Source: Nitrososphaerota archaeon (GTDB lineage: Archaea; Thermoproteota; Nitrososphaeria; Nitrososphaerales; CADDZS01). Taken from it: 64,000 bases of DNA. The stretch spans positions 58,409-122,408 of the forward strand of contig JAJPHP010000064.1 of assembly GCA_021325255.1 (NCBI GenBank). Direction: 5' to 3'. Positions 5,097 to 54,905 of the stretch are shown piece by piece. Numbering within the stretch: the first letter of the stretch is position 1; every line of letters begins with the position of its first letter. A program made the position numbers and the translations under genes. The notes beneath the pieces are model-generated. The model saw only the letters and a list, made by a program, of their open reading frames with translations, was not told the origin of the DNA and did not search any database.

Positions 5097-6086
5097 TTGA
5101 ACGAACCGAAAGAGGCTCTCGGTTGGGAGGGCAGAGAGGGAAGTCCTAATCTTGGGCAATCCCTATCATTACTCGTAGCGGGGCACGTGGTACTGGACCA
5201 GATAATCGATACTCCTGAGCAGCAGCTTCCGAGACAGGAGCTAGGGGGGCCAATTTCCTATTCGGCGCTCACACTTGGCAGTCTTGGCCATCGTTGCGAG
5301 GTCGTCACCAAGGTTGGATACGATTTCCCGAGCGTTTACGAAAAGTTCCTCCGGTTCGAGGCTGGCGTTGACGTTTCGGGTTCTGTTGTACCGGCATTCA
5401 AGACAACCTCGTTCAAAATAGACCGAACGTCCACACCGAGAAGGATGTGGCTCCTTGCTAGATGCAAGCCTCTGACAATGCAGGACTTTCTACCTTACAT
5501 TGCCCAAGCTGCTACAAGGCAGACGACTCTGATAATCAATCCGGTGGCCAATGAGATTTCGTTGTCACTGATGGAGCGTCTTTCGAAGGAGTTTGAACCC
5601 GTCCTGGTGGACTCTCAGGGATTCATTCGACAGATCCCTCGTGACAGACCAGGCGAGGTGCGGATCAAGAATGGGATTGATATCTCCTCGCTCTCAGGCG
5701 TGGACGTCCTAAAAGCAGATTCCAAAGAGCTGGCCGGATGGACCGGATCATCCGACAAGGAGAGATCGATCAGGCTCATCTCAAAATTTGTTGATGTTGT
5801 TCTTATGTCGTCAGGTTCCGGCGAAGTGGAGCTCTATGCCTCCGGCAAACTTGCACTTAGGGCAGAACCATTGCGGGTGGAGACAAATGACACGACTGGC
5901 GCAGGCGACATCCTCCTTGCATCATTTGCCTCAAAATTTGCAAGTAAGGCATCTTTAGAAGAGTCGCTCGCCTACTCTGTTGCGGCTGCCTCGCTTAGTG
6001 TTCGAACTAGGGGCGTGCGAAAGGGACTCTTGGACAGAGATGAAGTAGAAATGTCAGCTGGCCAGGTTCGAATTCAAAAGATGTAA
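5097..6086 (+). CDS. PfkB/ribokinase-family sugar kinase
   Basis: Phosphorylates a sugar, nucleoside or related alcohol; the substrate cannot be read from sequence. The N-terminal glycine motif is LGGPISYSALTLGSLG and the C-terminal catalytic motif is NDTTGAGD, whose Asp is the expected base. The protein has 329 residues and a TTG start, with about 25 extra residues before the first beta strand (LLVAGHVVLDQI). It follows ThrRS in the same direction after 130 bases. Given Ino1 at the left edge, an inositol or sugar kinase is possible, but nothing here proves it. Confidence 0.8.
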   Translation: MNEPKEALGWEGREGSPNLGQSLSLLVAGHVVLDQIIDTPEQQLPRQELGGPISYSALTLGSLGHRCEVVTKVGYDFPSVYEKFLRFEAGVDVSGSVVPAFKTTSFKIDRTSTPRRMWLLARCKPLTMQDFLPYIAQAATRQTTLIINPVANEISLSLMERLSKEFEPVLVDSQGFIRQIPRDRPGEVRIKNGIDISSLSGVDVLKADSKELAGWTGSSDKERSIRLISKFVDVVLMSSGSGEVELYASGKLALRAEPLRVETNDTTGAGDILLASFASKFASKASLEESLAYSVAAASLSVRTRGVRKGLLDRDEVEMSAGQVRIQKM

Positions 6087-24682: not shown

Positions 24683-25459
24683 TTGGGAGGAGCTGAAAAG
24701 AAGAAAGAACTATCGCAGAAAACAAGGAGAGCAAAGGAAATCAGGAAAACGAGCTCTCGTTCGCCATATTTCTCTCACCGCTCTTCACTACGAAGAGCAA
24801 ACAACGCTCAGAACAGTAGGAAAACGTCAGCGGGCGGAAGGATTTCAGTAATAATCTCCGGTATGCCTTCGGTCGGAAAGACTACTGCGGCGAACGCGAT
24901 ATCTACAAGATTCAGACTGAGGCTTCTCGCCGGAGGAGATATGCTGAAGGAGATGGCGATAGAGAGAGGCTACGCGCCATCAGGTTCAGAGTGGTGGGAT
25001 GGAAAGGAGGGGATGCGCTTTCTCTCCGAGCGCAAGTTAAATCCAAACTTTGATCGAGAGGTCGACAGGAGGCTAATCGAAAACGTCAGGCGTGGAGGAG
25101 TGGTTGTTACGAGTTACACTCTCCCCTGGTTGTGCAAAGACGGATTGAAGATCTGGTTCGGGGCAAGCCGGGAGACTAGGGCACGGAGGCTTGCGAACAG
25201 GGACGGAATTAGTTTTGCAGAAGCTCTTTCAACAATCAAAAAGAGAGACTCCCAAAACCGAAGGCTATATTCGGAGCTTTACGGGATAGAGTTCGGTAAG
25301 GATCTCTCTGTTTTCAACTACATCCTAGAAACTGATACTCTCTCTGCAAAACAGGTGGCTGATGTTTCTTGCAAGATTGTGCACCAGTTCCAGTTGCAGA
25401 AGAATTCGCGGCGGCATAGCGACCACGCTCACACAAAGGGTAGGAACAGGATATCTTGA
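24683..25459 (+). CDS. cmk: Cytidylate kinase, archaeal type, with basic N-terminal extension
   Basis: Phosphorylates CMP. The P-loop is SGMPSVGKTT, followed by LLAGGDMLKEMA and ERKLNPNFDREVDRRLIENV. The kinase fold starts only at about residue 53. The first 52 residues are strongly basic and polar, and TTG 24683 is the only reasonable start I find, so the extension may be real. The end overlaps cbf5 by four bases, indicating coupling. Confidence 0.88.
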   Translation: MGGAEKKKELSQKTRRAKEIRKTSSRSPYFSHRSSLRRANNAQNSRKTSAGGRISVIISGMPSVGKTTAANAISTRFRLRLLAGGDMLKEMAIERGYAPSGSEWWDGKEGMRFLSERKLNPNFDREVDRRLIENVRRGGVVVTSYTLPWLCKDGLKIWFGASRETRARRLANRDGISFAEALSTIKKRDSQNRRLYSELYGIEFGKDLSVFNYILETDTLSAKQVADVSCKIVHQFQLQKNSRRHSDHAHTKGRNRIS

Positions 25460-26649
25460 CTGCTCTATTCAGATCGGCCGAGAACTATGATGAGTACTTG
25501 GCAATGTATACTGTCGAGGAGGCCGCAAAGAATGAGAGCGACCTTGTCGTATTAGGTAGTGAGGAATCTAATCCTAAATTTGGCTCTATGCCATCTGAGC
25601 GACCAATAAAGGAGTACCTGCGCTACGGTTTCATTGCTCTCGACAAGCCGCAGGGTCCGACTAGCCACGAAGTGGTTGCTTGGGTTAGGAAGATGCTCGA
25701 CCAGGAAAGAGCAGGCCACTCAGGCACGCTAGATCCAATGGTCTCGGGAGTACTTCCGGTCGGCTTGGGGGAGGCCACAAAAGCTCTTTCTGTTTTACTG
25801 CTCGGTCCGAAGGAGTACATCGCAGTCGCGCGACTGCACGACTCAGTTCCAAAACCGATTCTCGATAGCGTGCTGCAGTCATTTGTGGGACCCATCTATC
25901 AACGCCCTCCTCAGAGATCGTCTGTAAGGAGGGTAACGAGGACCCGGACGATCTACGAAGACGAGGTGATCCAGGAAATTGGAAACCTGCTCCTGCTCCG
26001 GATACTTTGCGAGGCAGGCACGTACATTCGCAAGTTCATCTACGATATCGGCGAAGCAATAGTTGTTGGCGCTACTATGGCGGAGCTTCGCAGGACGCGG
26101 GTGTGCCACATCAAGGAGAGCGACCTAGTTAGGCTACACGATTTGTTTGAAGCGGTATCAGTTTACAAGTCTAGCGGAGACGATTCTAAGCTGCGAAAGC
26201 TGGTCCACCCAATCGAGTACGCAGTCTCGTTTCTAAAGCAGATCAAGATTAGGGACTCTGCCGTGGAGTCAATATGTCAGGGCGCGCAGCTTGCCGTGCC
26301 GGGCGTCCTTTCCTTCTCGAAGGGGCTAAAGAAAGGCGAGGTTGTTAGAATCATGACCCAAAAGGGGGAGCTCGTCGCGATCGGCGAGAGCCAAATGGAC
26401 GAGTCCGAGCTCACCTCTGCAAAGCACGGCCTAGTCACACTGACCAAGAGAGTTATTTTGGCGCAGGGGACTTACCCGAAGATGTGGAAAGCCAGAAAGG
26501 AAGAAGTGGGCACTGAAGAAGTTTCAGAACAGCTCTTGAAAAAGTCAATACTTGACACTTTGGAGAAGGAGCAGGGAGAAAGCACATCGGAGCAAGAGAA
26601 AGAAGGAGGAGCGGAGCACGAAAGAGCTAAGGGTTTGGAAACCAAATGA
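25456..26649 (+). CDS. cbf5: tRNA/rRNA pseudouridine synthase Cbf5 (archaeal TruB)
   Basis: Catalytic subunit of the H/ACA guide RNP, also able to make Psi55 in tRNA. The catalytic motif HSGTLDPMVSGVLPVGLGEA holds the essential Asp. RPPQRSSVRRV and AGTYIRKFIYDIGEA follow, then a C-terminal PUA domain near SKGLKKGEVVRIMTQKGE. 397 residues; the last ~55 are E/K-rich. TTG start, overlapping cmk by four bases. Confidence 0.95.
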   Translation: MTALFRSAENYDEYLAMYTVEEAAKNESDLVVLGSEESNPKFGSMPSERPIKEYLRYGFIALDKPQGPTSHEVVAWVRKMLDQERAGHSGTLDPMVSGVLPVGLGEATKALSVLLLGPKEYIAVARLHDSVPKPILDSVLQSFVGPIYQRPPQRSSVRRVTRTRTIYEDEVIQEIGNLLLLRILCEAGTYIRKFIYDIGEAIVVGATMAELRRTRVCHIKESDLVRLHDLFEAVSVYKSSGDDSKLRKLVHPIEYAVSFLKQIKIRDSAVESICQGAQLAVPGVLSFSKGLKKGEVVRIMTQKGELVAIGESQMDESELTSAKHGLVTLTKRVILAQGTYPKMWKARKEEVGTEEVSEQLLKKSILDTLEKEQGESTSEQEKEGGAEHERAKGLETK

Positions 26650-26959
26650 CTGAATGCAGATGCTCTGGGCCTATGTTGCTTCTTCTGCTGTGGCATTCTT
26701 GCAGAACAAGAATATTCGAGCCTGCCTGCTTCGTACTCGAGGTTTGATATATCAAATACAATCAAGGGGACAGAGTGAGAACGAAAGACTCCCGCGTTCA
26801 CACGATTATTATGGTCTACACCTAATGTAGTATGAAGAGGAGAGCAATTAGCAGATATAGGGATCAAGTTTGTAAGTAGACCAGCGATGCCGACAAAGAG
26901 GGGGCTGATCTCAACAAAGTAGATTGCAGGATAAATCGATCAATAACGGAATCCAATGT
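26650..26959 (+). other. 310-base gap before tRNA-Ser
   Basis: No gene seen. It contains an AT-rich patch with TTTGATATATCAAAT near 26743-26757, an imperfect palindrome, and a good TATA-like box immediately before the tRNA. Confidence 0.5.
26929..26936 (+). promoter_or_regulatory. TATA box of the tRNA-Ser gene
   Basis: GGATAAAT is centred about 27 bases upstream of the first tRNA base (26960), the standard archaeal TATA distance. It is the only such box in the local AT-poor sequence. Confidence 0.55.
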
Positions 26960-26974
26960 GCCGGGGTCGCCTAG

Positions 26975-27017
26975 TGCCTAGTCCCTTGGTCACGTAACGA
27001 GAGGACTATACGGGAAA
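26975..27017 (+). other. D-loop insertion (intron 1) of tRNA-Ser
   Basis: A normal D arm would read GCCTAG joined to CCTGGTAGGGC, leaving these 43 bases as insert. A clean bulge-helix-bulge fold predicts excision of only 26988-27017. In it TCCC (26982-26985) pairs GGGA (27012-27015), CTAG (26978-26981) pairs CTGG (27019-27022), and the 3-base bulges are TTG and AAC. That would leave 13 extra bases, including a second copy of GCCTAGT. Borders are therefore uncertain. Confidence 0.6.
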
Positions 27018-27032
27018 CCTGGTAGGGCGCAG

Positions 27033-27091
27033 AACTGTCGTCGGCGCCGTGAATCGAATTCCTGTGCGCCGCAAAGTGATTGAATGCGCAA
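27033..27091 (+). other. Intron 2 of tRNA-Ser at position 29/30
   Basis: A 59-base noncanonical intron inside the anticodon stem. The splice motif is exact: GCGC (27027-27030) pairs GCGC (27086-27089), with 3-base bulges AG|A and AA|G, and the outer helix AGG (27024-27026) pairs CCT (27093-27095). Position 29/30 is a known noncanonical archaeal intron site. Confidence 0.8.
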
Positions 27092-27099
27092 GCCTGGAA

Positions 27100-27160
27100 T
27101 TGAAGTTAGGGCAAGGCAGGTGCGTTGATGTCGTTGATGTCGCTGCATTTCTGTCTAGAA
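27100..27160 (+). other. Intron 3 of tRNA-Ser at canonical position 37/38
   Basis: A 61-base intron after A37. CTGG (27094-27097) pairs CTAG (27155-27158), with 3-base bulges AA|T and AA|A next to the anticodon stem, a proper bulge-helix-bulge core. The inner helix is weak, so this is a relaxed motif. Confidence 0.85.
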
Positions 27161-27282
27161 AGCCTGTGACCGATTTGGTCTCGTGGGTTCAAATCCCACC
27201 CCCGGCGCTTTACTGTTACGATCTGAGCGCAGACGCTATGTGATAGATGCGTACAAAATACAATTGCTCTAAGGGTCTCAAA

Positions 27283-27717
27283 TCAGGTCACAACCAACAC
27301 TGGGCAGTGTGAGCTTTCGATTACTTTTCTTGCTACGCTACCAAGGCTCCGGATTCTGTCGACTCCGTGGAGCCCCCTTAAACCAATGACAATCATGTCA
27401 ACTTTCTTCTCGATGGCATTTGAGACAATCTTTTCGGCCGGATCACCAGTTTCAAAAATTACTTCGTGAGATATTCCATCTGCCTGTATTTTCTCTCTAA
27501 GTTTCAATGTCACTCTTTCGGCGCCGGCAACTGAGCGTGTTCCCTTGGGACTCGGGTTAACCCCACCTATGTCGATGTACTCGCTTATAATGCTAGGAAA
27601 ATCGGACACAAACATTAGAATAATTGTCGAAGACATTTTTCTTGCGAATTCACAGGAATAATCGACAATTTTGTCTGAATGCTTCGATCCATCGACGGCA
27701 ACGAGCATCTGAGTCAA
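27283..27717 (-). CDS. Universal stress protein, UspA family
   Basis: Small cytoplasmic nucleotide-binding protein of unknown detailed role. MLVAVDGSKHSDKIVDYSCEFA opens the fold, and the ATP-binding signature GLRGLHGVDRIRSLGSVARKVI ends it (family G-x2-G-x9-G-S/T). TTG 27717 is chosen because a TATA-like stretch near 27760-27768 would start transcription downstream of the longer TTG at 27753. About 145 residues. Confidence 0.88.
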   Translation of the reverse strand: MTQMLVAVDGSKHSDKIVDYSCEFARKMSSTIILMFVSDFPSIISEYIDIGGVNPSPKGTRSVAGAERVTLKLREKIQADGISHEVIFETGDPAEKIVSNAIEKKVDMIVIGLRGLHGVDRIRSLGSVARKVIESSHCPVLVVT

Positions 27718-40815: not shown

Positions 40816-41902
40816 TGCTTTGTTGCACTATTCCATTTCTGGCCGAAAGACCTAAGGCCACGTTCTGTCCTGTCTATCAATTTGCTATAATTCGTGGATT
40901 ACACTGTGCGCAGTGCTAGGAGGAACTGGCACGATTACAATCAAAAGCTCGTCAACGAGACGGTAGATCTCTTCGTTCACAGGGATGTCCTTGAATCTTT
41001 CAAGAAGCTCGACTCTCTCAACGAGGGAGGAAAGGTGGGTCATCCATTCGAATACGCTAGCAGCGTCATACTGATGATCTGTGCGGTGAGAAATTACTTC
41101 CACCTCCCATACAGGCAGGCTGAAGGATTTGCAAAGCTCCTGGGAGGAATTTGGGGAGCAAAGATTCCCTGTTACTCCCAGATCTGCAGAAGGCAGAAGA
41201 CGTTGAACATTCCACTAAACATCAACGAGGCGTACTACGAAGATGGTGGTCAGCCTGCTGACATCATAATCGACTCTTCCGGGCTGAAGGTCTCAAACAG
41301 GGGGGAGTGGATGAGGCAGAAGTGGAAGGTGAGGAGAGGGTTCATCAAGATACACCTAACATGCGATTGCAAAACTCATTCGATAACTAGCGTTCAGGTT
41401 ACTGACGAACATGTACATGATTCAATGCAGTTCAAAACACTCGTGTCAAACGCAAAGGAGAGGGTCAGAAAGATTGGAAGGGTGTTCGGAGACACATCTT
41501 ACGATTCCAGGGAGAATTTCAATCATGTAGGTTCACTCGGTGGTGCAGAGCCAGTGATAAAGCCAAGGAAGAACTCCTCTGGCAAATCAAAAGGGTCCTA
41601 TCTCAGAGGAAAGACAGCGAGGGAGTTCATCAAAGATCCGAAAGAGTGGAAACAGAAACATGAATACGGTCAGAGGTGGCAGATCGAGACATCGATTTCG
41701 ACGTTCAAGCGCAGCCTGGGAGAATGCGTTACCTCTATCCTTCCGTTTGGAATTGTGAATGAGGTACTGTCAAAATGTCTGACTTACAACATCATGGCTG
41801 CTCACAGAGGAGGGACAGTCACCCGATGAAAGGAGTCGAGATGGTATGAGAGGGGAAGAGAATCAAACATAAGAGACGAAAGTTCGATAGTGCAACAAAG
41901 CA
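40816..41902 (+). mobile_element. Complete IS5-family element (ISH1-like)
   Basis: A 1087-bp insertion sequence with perfect 16-bp terminal inverted repeats TGCTTTGTTGCACTAT (40816-40831, and 41887-41902 inverted). It is flanked by 8-bp target duplications CGTTATGC (40808-40815 and 41903-41910). An 8-bp duplication matches the ISH1 group of the IS5 family. The single transposase frame is intact. Exact repeats suggest a recent insertion. It landed just upstream of guaB. Confidence 0.92.
40894..41829 (+). CDS. IS5-family DDE transposase
   Basis: Cuts and joins the element ends. The DDE residues are visible: first Asp in IIIDSSGLKVSNRGEW, second in FGDTSYDSRENF, and Glu in the Y-x2-R-x3-E-x6-K signature YGQRWQIETSISTFK. 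311 residues, GTG start, full length for the family. No frameshift or internal stop. Confidence 0.93.
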   Translation: MDYTVRSARRNWHDYNQKLVNETVDLFVHRDVLESFKKLDSLNEGGKVGHPFEYASSVILMICAVRNYFHLPYRQAEGFAKLLGGIWGAKIPCYSQICRRQKTLNIPLNINEAYYEDGGQPADIIIDSSGLKVSNRGEWMRQKWKVRRGFIKIHLTCDCKTHSITSVQVTDEHVHDSMQFKTLVSNAKERVRKIGRVFGDTSYDSRENFNHVGSLGGAEPVIKPRKNSSGKSKGSYLRGKTAREFIKDPKEWKQKHEYGQRWQIETSISTFKRSLGECVTSILPFGIVNEVLSKCLTYNIMAAHRGGTVTR

Positions 41903-51582: not shown

Positions 51583-52872
51583 TCAGGATACTCTGCGATA
51601 CAATCCGTACGCATCTCTCAGGACCCCGAGGCGGCCCCTCTTTTCAAAGAGCTCCTTCTTCATCTCCTTGATGTGCTCCTCCTTCGGCCTCCCATCGACG
51701 TCAAAGAAGCGGTAGAGCATAGAATTCATCAACTCAGGGTACAGCGTCAGGAACTGCTTGTTCTTTGCAATGTATCCAGGAACATCCCTGAATTTCTTGA
51801 GATCCTTCAAAACGAAGCTGCTTTCGAGTAGCGCCCGATATCTTGAAAGCTGGTCGGCGGTGAACTGGCCGTTTCCACTCTTCTTCGTTTCGACGATTGT
51901 CTGACCAGCAAACTTGCCCGAAATCATGGCGAAATTCGTCCCCTCCCAAGTTAGGGCATTCACCAACATCGCGGCGTCACCCGCTACGAGCATGCCGTCC
52001 GTGTAGAGTGGAGGAATCTTGTCGTAGCCTCCCTCCGGAATCAGGTGCGCCGTATACTCGCGCAGAGCCGCACCCTCCATCAGGGGCTTGATCGATGGGT
52101 GGGACTTTAACCACTCGAGGATCTGTTGCGGCTTTGTCTTGTAAGCGGCCAGATCGCTCATGATTGCGCCCATGCCAAATGATATCGTGTCTTTGTTCGT
52201 GTAGATAAAGCCAGCAAACTCTTCATTGCGTCCGCCGTAGATCATGATCGCGACGCCCTCGTCTCCGCGGACGTTGAACCTGTCCTCGATCTTTTCTTTT
52301 GGAAGCGAGTAGGTCTCTTTGACCGCGACCGACATATCCTCGGGCTTCCACTCCTCGTGGAGCCCTGCTCCTTTTGAGATTAGAGAGTTTGCACCATCGC
52401 ACGCGATTACTACGTCAGCCAAAAGGTCCCCCCGGTCGGTCGAAACGCCGTTGATTTTGTTGTTCGAGTCATGGAGAACACCTGTCGCGGTCGTTCGCGT
52501 CAGGAGGACTGCGCCAGAGGCCTCGGCCTGTTGCGCGAACCATCTATCAAATCTTGCTCGGAGGGCCGTGAAGCTGTTAAAATCCTTGACAAACTTCTGG
52601 TTTCGGTGAGCAATCTGAACGTGCGACTCGCTTGAAAGCAGCCAGTACTGGTACTCTATCACCCTTCGCTCGATTGGGGCGGTCTTCCAAAACTCTGGCA
52701 CGATCTCCGCGGTGGGCTTTGTGAAGATTATGCCTCCGAACATGTTCTTCGCACCAGCAAAGTCCCCGCGCTCCAAGATCACGGTGTTTAGTCCTGCTCT
52801 AGAAGTGGTTATTGCGGCTGCGACCCCCGCGGGACCTGCGCCGATGACCGCCACGTCGTACTTTTCTACCAT
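51583..52872 (-). CDS. fixC: FixC, FAD-dependent quinone oxidoreductase
   Basis: Passes electrons from ETF to the quinone pool, like ETF:quinone oxidoreductase. DVAVIGAGPAGVAAAITTSR is the FAD Rossmann motif, LVAGDAAMLVNALTWEGTNF the second FAD site, and KNMFGGIIF a FixC block. 429 residues, ATG start. It lies 53 bases after etfBA and 71 before fixX, so the three form one transcription unit. Confidence 0.92.
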   Translation of the reverse strand: MVEKYDVAVIGAGPAGVAAAITTSRAGLNTVILERGDFAGAKNMFGGIIFTKPTAEIVPEFWKTAPIERRVIEYQYWLLSSESHVQIAHRNQKFVKDFNSFTALRARFDRWFAQQAEASGAVLLTRTTATGVLHDSNNKINGVSTDRGDLLADVVIACDGANSLISKGAGLHEEWKPEDMSVAVKETYSLPKEKIEDRFNVRGDEGVAIMIYGGRNEEFAGFIYTNKDTISFGMGAIMSDLAAYKTKPQQILEWLKSHPSIKPLMEGAALREYTAHLIPEGGYDKIPPLYTDGMLVAGDAAMLVNALTWEGTNFAMISGKFAGQTIVETKKSGNGQFTADQLSRYRALLESSFVLKDLKKFRDVPGYIAKNKQFLTLYPELMNSMLYRFFDVDGRPKEEHIKEMKKELFEKRGRLGVLRDAYGLYRRVS

Positions 52873-52925
52873 ACTACCTTGGCCCTCACCCTCGCTGTCT
52901 ATACATTTCTACTCTGAACAAGATT

Positions 52926-54905
52926 TCAGGACGCTGACGCCCTCGCAAGACCCCTCCGCTTTATCTCATCGATAAGCAGAGGCACTACGCGGAAAAGGTC
53001 TCCGACAATTCCAAAGTGCGCCACGCCAAAGATCGGCGCATCAGGGTCCTTGTTTATTGCAACTATTGTATCGGAGTTCTCCATGCCCACCAAGTGCTGC
53101 ACTGCTCCTGAAAGTCCTACAGCGAAATAGAGCCTTGCCCTAACCGTGACGCCCGTCTGTCCCACTTGGTGATCCTTTGATATCCACCCAAGATATACGA
53201 CCGCACGCGTCGCCCCCACCTGGCCCCCGAGGGTGCTTGCTAGTTCATCTACCAGGGCAAAATTCTTTGGATTCCCCAACCCTCTTCCACCCGAAACAAT
53301 CACGTCAGCTCCTTCAAGCTTTGCCCCTGCTTTTTCTACAGGTGTGAATGAGATTATCTTTTCTTTGATGTCATCCTCGTTGAGCTCAACGGATTCCTGG
53401 ATGATCTCACCATCTCTTCCCTGAATCCTTGGAGGCATCTTCATCACTCTTGTCCTGACGCTCGCCATAGTGGGCTTGTGCCTGGGGCAGACAATCGTGG
53501 ACATTTCTTTGCCTCCAAAGTCAGGCCTTGTTCCGTTGAAACCTCCCTTTTCGTCTACATCGAGGGAGGTGCAATCAGCTATGAGGCCTGTTTCTATGAT
53601 GGTAGCCAACACTCCCGCTAGGTCTCGTCCGTTGTACGTTCCACCCATCAAGATCACTTCAGGATGGAACTTGTTTGAAAGTTGGGCAAACGCTTTCCCA
53701 TATGTCTCGCTTCTGTAATCCTTCATCACCGGATGTTCGATGATGTAGACCTTGTCTGCGCCGTATTCGAACGCCTCCTTTGCCAGGTTTTTTACATCGT
53801 GTCCAAGTACTATTGCGCAAACCTTCGTTCCGTATATTCGAGATAGTCTCTTCCCTTCGCCCATGAGTTCCCATGAGACGCGGGCCGCCTGGCCATTTCT
53901 GTGCTCAACGTAAACCCAGACATCGCCGTGCTCTCCGGGTATTGGGGTCCTTTCTTGAACGGGTGGAGCACTCGCGACGGCAGCACTTGGCGGTGGTATT
54001 GCCGATGAATTTGCAGCGACCGGATTGGAAGGTTCGACTTGATCTGGAATCACTCCTCCGGAGACCTTCTTGCCAAACGCTCCAATCTGCACCAACCTGT
54101 CAACGAGCCAGACAGCGGCTTCCTTTGGATTTTGATTCGCGTCCTTGACTTCTCCCTTCTTCTTTGGAGGAGGCGTTACAACTTTCTTAACATAAGTTGG
54201 CGAGCCGCCCAATCCGATACGCTTGGGATCAGCCTGCACTGTGTCCTTGTTGAGAATTGTAATCTTTGCCTTCTTTGCCCTGAGGAGGCCTTCAACCGAA
54301 GCCTGCCTTGGTTCATTGGCGGCCTCAGTGATAGTCAACGCACATGGGATTGGAACCTTGACGATCTCGACGCCGTCGTCCACTCTTCTTTCGGCTTCGA
54401 CGGTTCGGTTCTGCAGATCGACCTTCAAAATCTTTGACGTATACGTGACGACCGGGAATCCTAGTCTGACGGCTACGCCAGGACCAACCTGACCGGTCTC
54501 ACCGTCGATTGCTACCTTGCCGAAGAAGACGATATCTGTCGGCCCGTTGGTGTCCTCTATCTTTTTGATAGCTTTCCACAAAGCATAGGAAGTGGCAAGA
54601 GTATCCGCGCCACCAAACGCTCTATCTGTAAGTAGGTATGCCTGGTCGACGCCCATGGCAATCGCTTCCCTCAGACTCTGTTCTGCCTGAGGAGGTCCCA
54701 TCGTAACGACGCTGACGTTTGCACCAAACGTATCCTTAAACTCCAGAGCTGCTTCAATTGCGTTGAGGTCGGTCGGATTTACAACCGCTGGTACACCCTC
54801 ACGTATGAGGTTGTTTGTTTTTGGGTCGATGCGCATATCATTGGTATCTGGTACTTGCTTGATGCAAAGGATGACATTGAGAGGCAATGTTGACGAAGAA
54901 TGCAC
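52926..54905 (-). CDS. etfBA: Fused electron transfer flavoprotein, beta then alpha (EtfBA)
   Basis: One 659-residue chain joins both ETF subunits. Residues 10-265 are EtfB/FixA (VILCIKQVPDTNDMRIDP, AMGVDQAYLLTD). A P/K-rich linker covers about 265-335. Residues 340-655 are EtfA/FixB (GGRGLGNPKNFALVDELAST, QVGQTGVTVRARLYFAVGLS, AINKDPDAPIFGVAHFGIVG). With FixC and FixX this is a Fix-type module that may bifurcate electrons between quinone and ferredoxin; that activity is inferred. ATG start. Confidence 0.93.
   Translation of the reverse strand: MHSSSTLPLNVILCIKQVPDTNDMRIDPKTNNLIREGVPAVVNPTDLNAIEAALEFKDTFGANVSVVTMGPPQAEQSLREAIAMGVDQAYLLTDRAFGGADTLATSYALWKAIKKIEDTNGPTDIVFFGKVAIDGETGQVGPGVAVRLGFPVVTYTSKILKVDLQNRTVEAERRVDDGVEIVKVPIPCALTITEAANEPRQASVEGLLRAKKAKITILNKDTVQADPKRIGLGGSPTYVKKVVTPPPKKKGEVKDANQNPKEAAVWLVDRLVQIGAFGKKVSGGVIPDQVEPSNPVAANSSAIPPPSAAVASAPPVQERTPIPGEHGDVWVYVEHRNGQAARVSWELMGEGKRLSRIYGTKVCAIVLGHDVKNLAKEAFEYGADKVYIIEHPVMKDYRSETYGKAFAQLSNKFHPEVILMGGTYNGRDLAGVLATIIETGLIADCTSLDVDEKGGFNGTRPDFGGKEMSTIVCPRHKPTMASVRTRVMKMPPRIQGRDGEIIQESVELNEDDIKEKIISFTPVEKAGAKLEGADVIVSGGRGLGNPKNFALVDELASTLGGQVGATRAVVYLGWISKDHQVGQTGVTVRARLYFAVGLSGAVQHLVGMENSDTIVAINKDPDAPIFGVAHFGIVGDLFRVVPLLIDEIKRRGLARASAS

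Follow-up and report, generated by a model that had tools for sequence, protein, structure and literature searches.

The window, i.e., the whole 64-kb stretch of DNA that was analysed, holds at 26960-27207 of its forward strand what its sequence indicates is very probably a functional tRNA-Ser(GGA) gene interrupted by three introns, and this is the only recognisable tRNA gene in it. A scan of both strands for T arms and acceptor stems returned a single T arm (27183-27199) and a single acceptor pair (26960-26966 with 27200-27206), with Watson-Crick pairs at all 7 of 7 positions. In Markov-resampled 64-kb sequences (n = 20, one strand each), bare T arms occurred at a mean of 0.85 per sequence and T-arm/acceptor pairs at a mean of 0.0. 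Since about 0.85 T arms are expected by resampling, a T arm alone is no evidence for a tRNA gene; the acceptor pairing is. ARAGORN found no tRNAs in the raw, unspliced window and Rfam gave no matches at gathering score, while a search of 26900-27300 at E-values up to 10 produced sub-threshold matches only; those close to the tRNA gene fell below their own cut-offs and were regarded as chance. Such failure is to be expected of an unspliced, multi-intron gene. It was in the spliced form only that a cloverleaf with the GGA anticodon and a long variable arm was present: the four joined exons make an 83-nt type II tRNA that has G as its discriminator, and ARAGORN called this product tRNA-Ser(gga). 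This call and the sole 7/7 acceptor pair bear out the coordinates, isotype and anticodon that an initial annotation had assigned.

All four exons lie on the forward strand. Exon 1 (26960-26974, with a 3' end placed to within a few bases) supplies the 5' acceptor strand, bases 8-9, the 5' strand of the D stem, and A14 and G15; exon 2 (27020-27032) supplies the remaining D arm and bases 27-29. Exon 3 (27092-27099) comprises bases 30-37, anticodon GGA included, and exon 4 (27161-27207) runs from base 38 through the long variable arm, the T arm and the 3' acceptor strand (27200-27206) to the discriminator, G, at 27207; no CCA is encoded. A 15-base exon 1 pattern, searched with up to 3 mismatches, matched the window 6 times versus 1.19 expected, and zero mismatches were seen at the gene only.

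We enumerated the possible splicings under a fixed set of rules (U8, A14, R15, GG, A21, U33, R37, a complete anticodon stem, a contiguous variable region, and at most three introns). This gave 1431 cloverleaf-compatible splicings, all with three introns; with the variable arm assumed contiguous and a maximum of three introns, none of the 1431 solutions had fewer. The initial annotation had argued that the stems close only after three removals, and the number three agrees with this result. Its use of closure as proof of the borders does not stand, since 1431 different triple removals close the stems and stem closure therefore cannot fix intron borders.

The borders in the anticodon arm were instead settled by the splicing motif. 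Enumeration from base 27 (27030), allowing one or two introns, gave 2696 anticodon-arm splicings that pass the stem and loop rules, and the motif was scored on the 526 of these with an allowed variable-region length. Complete central helices (4/4 pairs) at all introns occurred in 2 of the 526, and when outer helices of at least 2 bp were also required at all introns a single splicing was left, namely 27033-27091 plus 27100-27160, the pair chosen in the initial annotation. Since it is the motif, and not stem closure, that singles out 1/526, introns at positions 29/30 and 37/38 with the archaeal splicing motif are well supported. Both strict cores claimed for them, a 4-bp helix with 3-base bulges on both sides, are present in the sequence. 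Intron 2 (27033-27091, forward strand, 59 nt, position 29/30) has the central helix GCGC:GCGC, formed by 27027-27030 with 27086-27089, and an outer helix of 4 bp. Intron 3 (27100-27160, forward strand, 61 nt, the canonical position 37/38) has the central helix CUGG:CUAG, formed by 27094-27097 with 27155-27158, and an outer helix of 2 bp with intron 2 present and 7 bp once intron 2 is removed. The cut in both cores falls behind the second base of the bulge. Given these borders, central helices such as the two observed would arise by chance with probabilities of about 0.015 and 0.031. The inner helices are short (1 bp in intron 2, 0 bp in intron 3), and the fold stability of the introns is unremarkable (z of -1.56, -0.48 and -1.5 versus mononucleotide shuffles). 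Intron 3 also contains a perfect tandem repeat at 27124-27141, GTTGATGTC twice.

Exon bases 31-34 are paired in the outer helix of intron 2, and bases 32-35 take part in the central helix of intron 3. The motifs of introns 2 and 3 thus draw on shared exon bases and are mutually exclusive. In the full precursor, the minimum-energy fold includes the central helix of intron 2 at zero cost, though with a mean probability of only 0.41. For the central helix of intron 3, forced formation costs 7.1 kcal/mol while intron 2 is present, 2.7 kcal/mol once intron 2 is removed, and 1.4 kcal/mol with introns 1 and 2 both gone; its mean probability is 0.01 after loss of intron 2 and 0.12 with intron 1 also gone. 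These modelled folds suggest that intron 2 is removed before intron 3. The order is nonetheless inferential, because no intermediate tested has the central helix of intron 3 in its minimum-energy fold (the probability of this helix never exceeds 0.12). Archaeal introns are described as sometimes lying so close together that one must leave before the next motif forms (PMC8450103).

Intron 1 interrupts the D loop (forward strand), and removal of this insert is likely, with borders that are uncertain by a few bases. The initial annotation gave it as 26975-27019 (45 nt), whereas 13 valid alternatives have lengths of 43-45 nt and outermost limits of 26972-27021. A strict bulge-helix-bulge with 4/4 central pairs was found in 0 of these 13 D-loop-valid splicings, the best having 3/4. 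The insert itself thus stands, whereas its annotated borders, with central pairs at 1/4 and outer pairs at 3/3, are not marked by the motif. The best-scoring borders, 26973-27015, show 3/4 central, 2/3 outer and 3/3 inner pairs, a motif score that a fraction of 0.128 of shuffled inserts matched or beat; another alternative, 26975-27017, has 3/4 central pairs and no outer pairs. The D-loop sequences competing after removal of intron 1 are AGUGGUA, AGCCUGGUA and AACCUGGUA. The annotated 7-nt D loop is given by 3 of the 13 valid splicings, and in it G15 stays opposite C48, which is the usual pairing. The D arm rebuilt in this version is also present, as one continuous sequence, in a viral gene that ARAGORN calls as tRNA-Phe.

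Other ways of defining intron 1 were tried and rejected. A strict 30-nt motif at 26988-27017 (outer 4, central 4 and inner 2 bp), taken as intron 1, would make the D loop 15 bases too long, and a motif like it was present in 6.2% of 2000 resampled sequences. Two-step removal starting from this motif also failed: none of the ten best strict motifs found in the intermediate gives back a normal D loop. A strong core at the 26984-style hairpin was judged unrelated; it appears as a fold, not as a motif. At the border between exon 1 and intron 1 (26969-26982) there is a perfect tandem repeat, GCCTAGT twice, and, given the tandem repeats in both, slippage may have lengthened introns 1 and 3.

We propose that the gene is transcribed and that its precursor would be cut by the archaeal tRNA splicing endonuclease, after which the exons would be ligated. 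Intron 2 would be recognised first, via its own bulge-helix-bulge. Its loss would complete the anticodon stem, so that the motif of intron 3 at 37/38 could form and intron 3 could be cut next, and the D-loop intron 1 would be removed through a relaxed, mismatch-bearing motif. It is quite unlikely that the D-loop insert is instead either cut without a bulge-helix-bulge, guided by a hairpin on the D stem, or retained as a giant D arm; if true, either would be a new way for an archaeal tRNA to handle an insert.

The missing strict motif at the D loop would also fit a pseudogene. In that case the D loop of a tRNA-Ser gene that formerly bore introns would have been disrupted by an unspliceable insert, with an intact copy present elsewhere in the genome, and the slippage-like 7-base tandem repeat at 26969-26982 is in keeping with such an event. 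However, the acceptor, the T arm and the anticodon arm are intact, as are two splicing motifs, all of them elements that decay would tend to erode, and the cutting of relaxed motifs is on record (PMC4307357); we therefore regard a pseudogene as unlikely. A two-intron gene whose mature tRNA retains the D-loop insert, so that its D arm is extended, draws on the minimum-energy fold of the RNA that has lost introns 2 and 3 but not the insert: the D stem and all other arms are present in this fold, and the insert forms a hairpin stacked on the D stem. This would, however, remove the normal contact geometry of the D loop and T loop, and we know of no archaeal tRNA with such an extended D arm. D-arm introns, moreover, are proven in other archaea (PMC4307357), and a retained insert appears very unlikely. 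Taken by itself, the weak D-loop motif does not separate a relaxed motif from a retained insert or decay.

The remaining explanation, that the anticodon-arm borders differ or that the resemblance to a tRNA is due to chance, gains something from the ease with which three free cuts close the stems (the 1431 solutions) and from the expectation of a comparable T arm about once per strand of such a window. Against it, acceptor/T-arm pairs averaged 0.0 in the 20 resampled sequences, the central helices are improbable at the fixed borders, and only 1 of the 526 splicings carried the full motif; the nearest competitor has the same intron 2 but no outer helix at the second intron. This explanation is thus highly improbable, and a working gene with three introns is the reading that we carry forward.

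Upstream of the tRNA gene lie secY, adk, a cmk-like kinase gene (98.9 bits versus a cut-off of 102.1) and cbf5, which ends 310 bases before the tRNA gene; downstream, on the opposite strand, is a universal stress protein gene. The cbf5 reading frame (25456-26649) is uninterrupted; a spliced intron is described in the cbf5 of several crenarchaea (PMC2738675). Of the Cbf5 relatives listed (at least 120), 10 carry an organism name: 9 belong to Nitrososphaeria or Thaumarchaeota, and the tenth bears a chlamydial label that presumably reflects misbinning. The nearest named relative among the matches listed had 77% identity, and a protein identical to the Cbf5 of the window lies on a contig of 122,222 bases. 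The source lineage is Nitrososphaeria; the named Cbf5 relatives and the neighbouring cbf5 frame agree with the initial description of a Thaumarchaeota-like genome with cbf5 adjoining the tRNA gene. Family scans of 54 distinct ORFs, a subset of those in the window, found neither a splicing endonuclease nor an RNA ligase. Elsewhere in the window is a DDE transposase gene (40894-41829). The stretch 51583-54905 encodes an FAD oxidoreductase and, next to it, a protein of 659 aa in which two stretches match ETF domains and a further one the ETF alpha FAD-binding domain; together with a nearby proline dehydrogenase, the ETF-domain protein hints at a heterotroph.

Searches beyond the window gave few matches. 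A single-protein contig scan with six exact peptides found one locus, L001, labelled as a Terriglobia MAG (29% identity); the Cbf5-type DKCLD domain is matched in 4 of 14 control genomes but not in the genome of L001. There were no Cbf5 relatives in viral contigs, by an alignment built from 23 of the at least 120 listed proteins. Pattern searches returned one virus record each, L002 for the T arm and acceptor and L003 for the D arm. The L002 virus contig carries on its minus strand (5428-5555) a tRNA-like gene with the same acceptor and T-arm letters, which apparently has two T-arm-like hairpins and is absent from the 3 tRNAs that ARAGORN calls in L002. Searched against plasmids, 27155-27207 had a single match, from Rhizobium, that covered 55% of the query.

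Archaeal tRNA genes are described as carrying up to three introns, and both multiple noncanonical tRNA introns in Thaumarchaeota and the stepwise removal of neighbouring archaeal introns are in print (PMC8450103), as are multi-intron tRNA genes in Caldiarchaeum alongside noncanonical introns in Thaumarchaeota (PMC8450103, PMC3218864, PMC3293823, PMC4390854). The initial view that a multi-intron gene is notable in a Thaumarchaeota-like genome was therefore overstated. Among the papers listed in the literature searches, titles and abstract openings yielded no three-intron tRNA-Ser(GGA) in Nitrososphaeria. As described, the Thermoproteales genes for Pyrobaculum calidifontis tRNA-Glu(UUC) and P. 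islandicum tRNA-Pro(UGG) likewise have three introns with bulge-helix-bulge motifs (PMC4390854), but they belong to another phylum and other isotypes, and in the present gene the D-loop intron is without a strict motif. The Thaumarchaeota introns modelled in tRNAscan-SE 2.0 come from the same broad lineage and share noncanonical positions, several introns per gene and stepwise removal, although the passages on these introns name no triple-intron tRNA-Ser(GGA) (PMC8450103). A more distant parallel is tRNA-Ile(UAU) of the red alga Cyanidioschyzon merolae, which likewise has three introns, located in the D, anticodon and T arms. A D-arm intron is thus common to both genes, but the third intron of the algal gene is in the T arm and not in the anticodon stem (PMC9602550).

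For Aeropyrum and Sulfolobus there is proof of introns in the D arm (PMC4307357). In Aeropyrum a typical motif surrounds each proven splice site, unlike intron 1 here, whereas the mismatched central helix of Sulfolobus tRNA-Met is nevertheless cut, and mismatched motifs are reported to be cut by crenarchaeal EndA (PMC4307357). The splicing endonuclease of Thaumarchaeota is given as the alpha2-beta2, lenient type (PMC4090602). In the known D-arm system with relaxed motifs, the borders were proven by cDNA or in vitro cleavage; here we infer them. The present gene adds a likely triple-intron tRNA gene of Nitrososphaeria that goes unnoticed by ARAGORN and Rfam, and offers a test case for ordered splicing and for the leniency of this lineage's endonuclease at a site in the D loop. 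Compared with these systems, its kind is already known, and the one unusual point is its weak D-loop motif.
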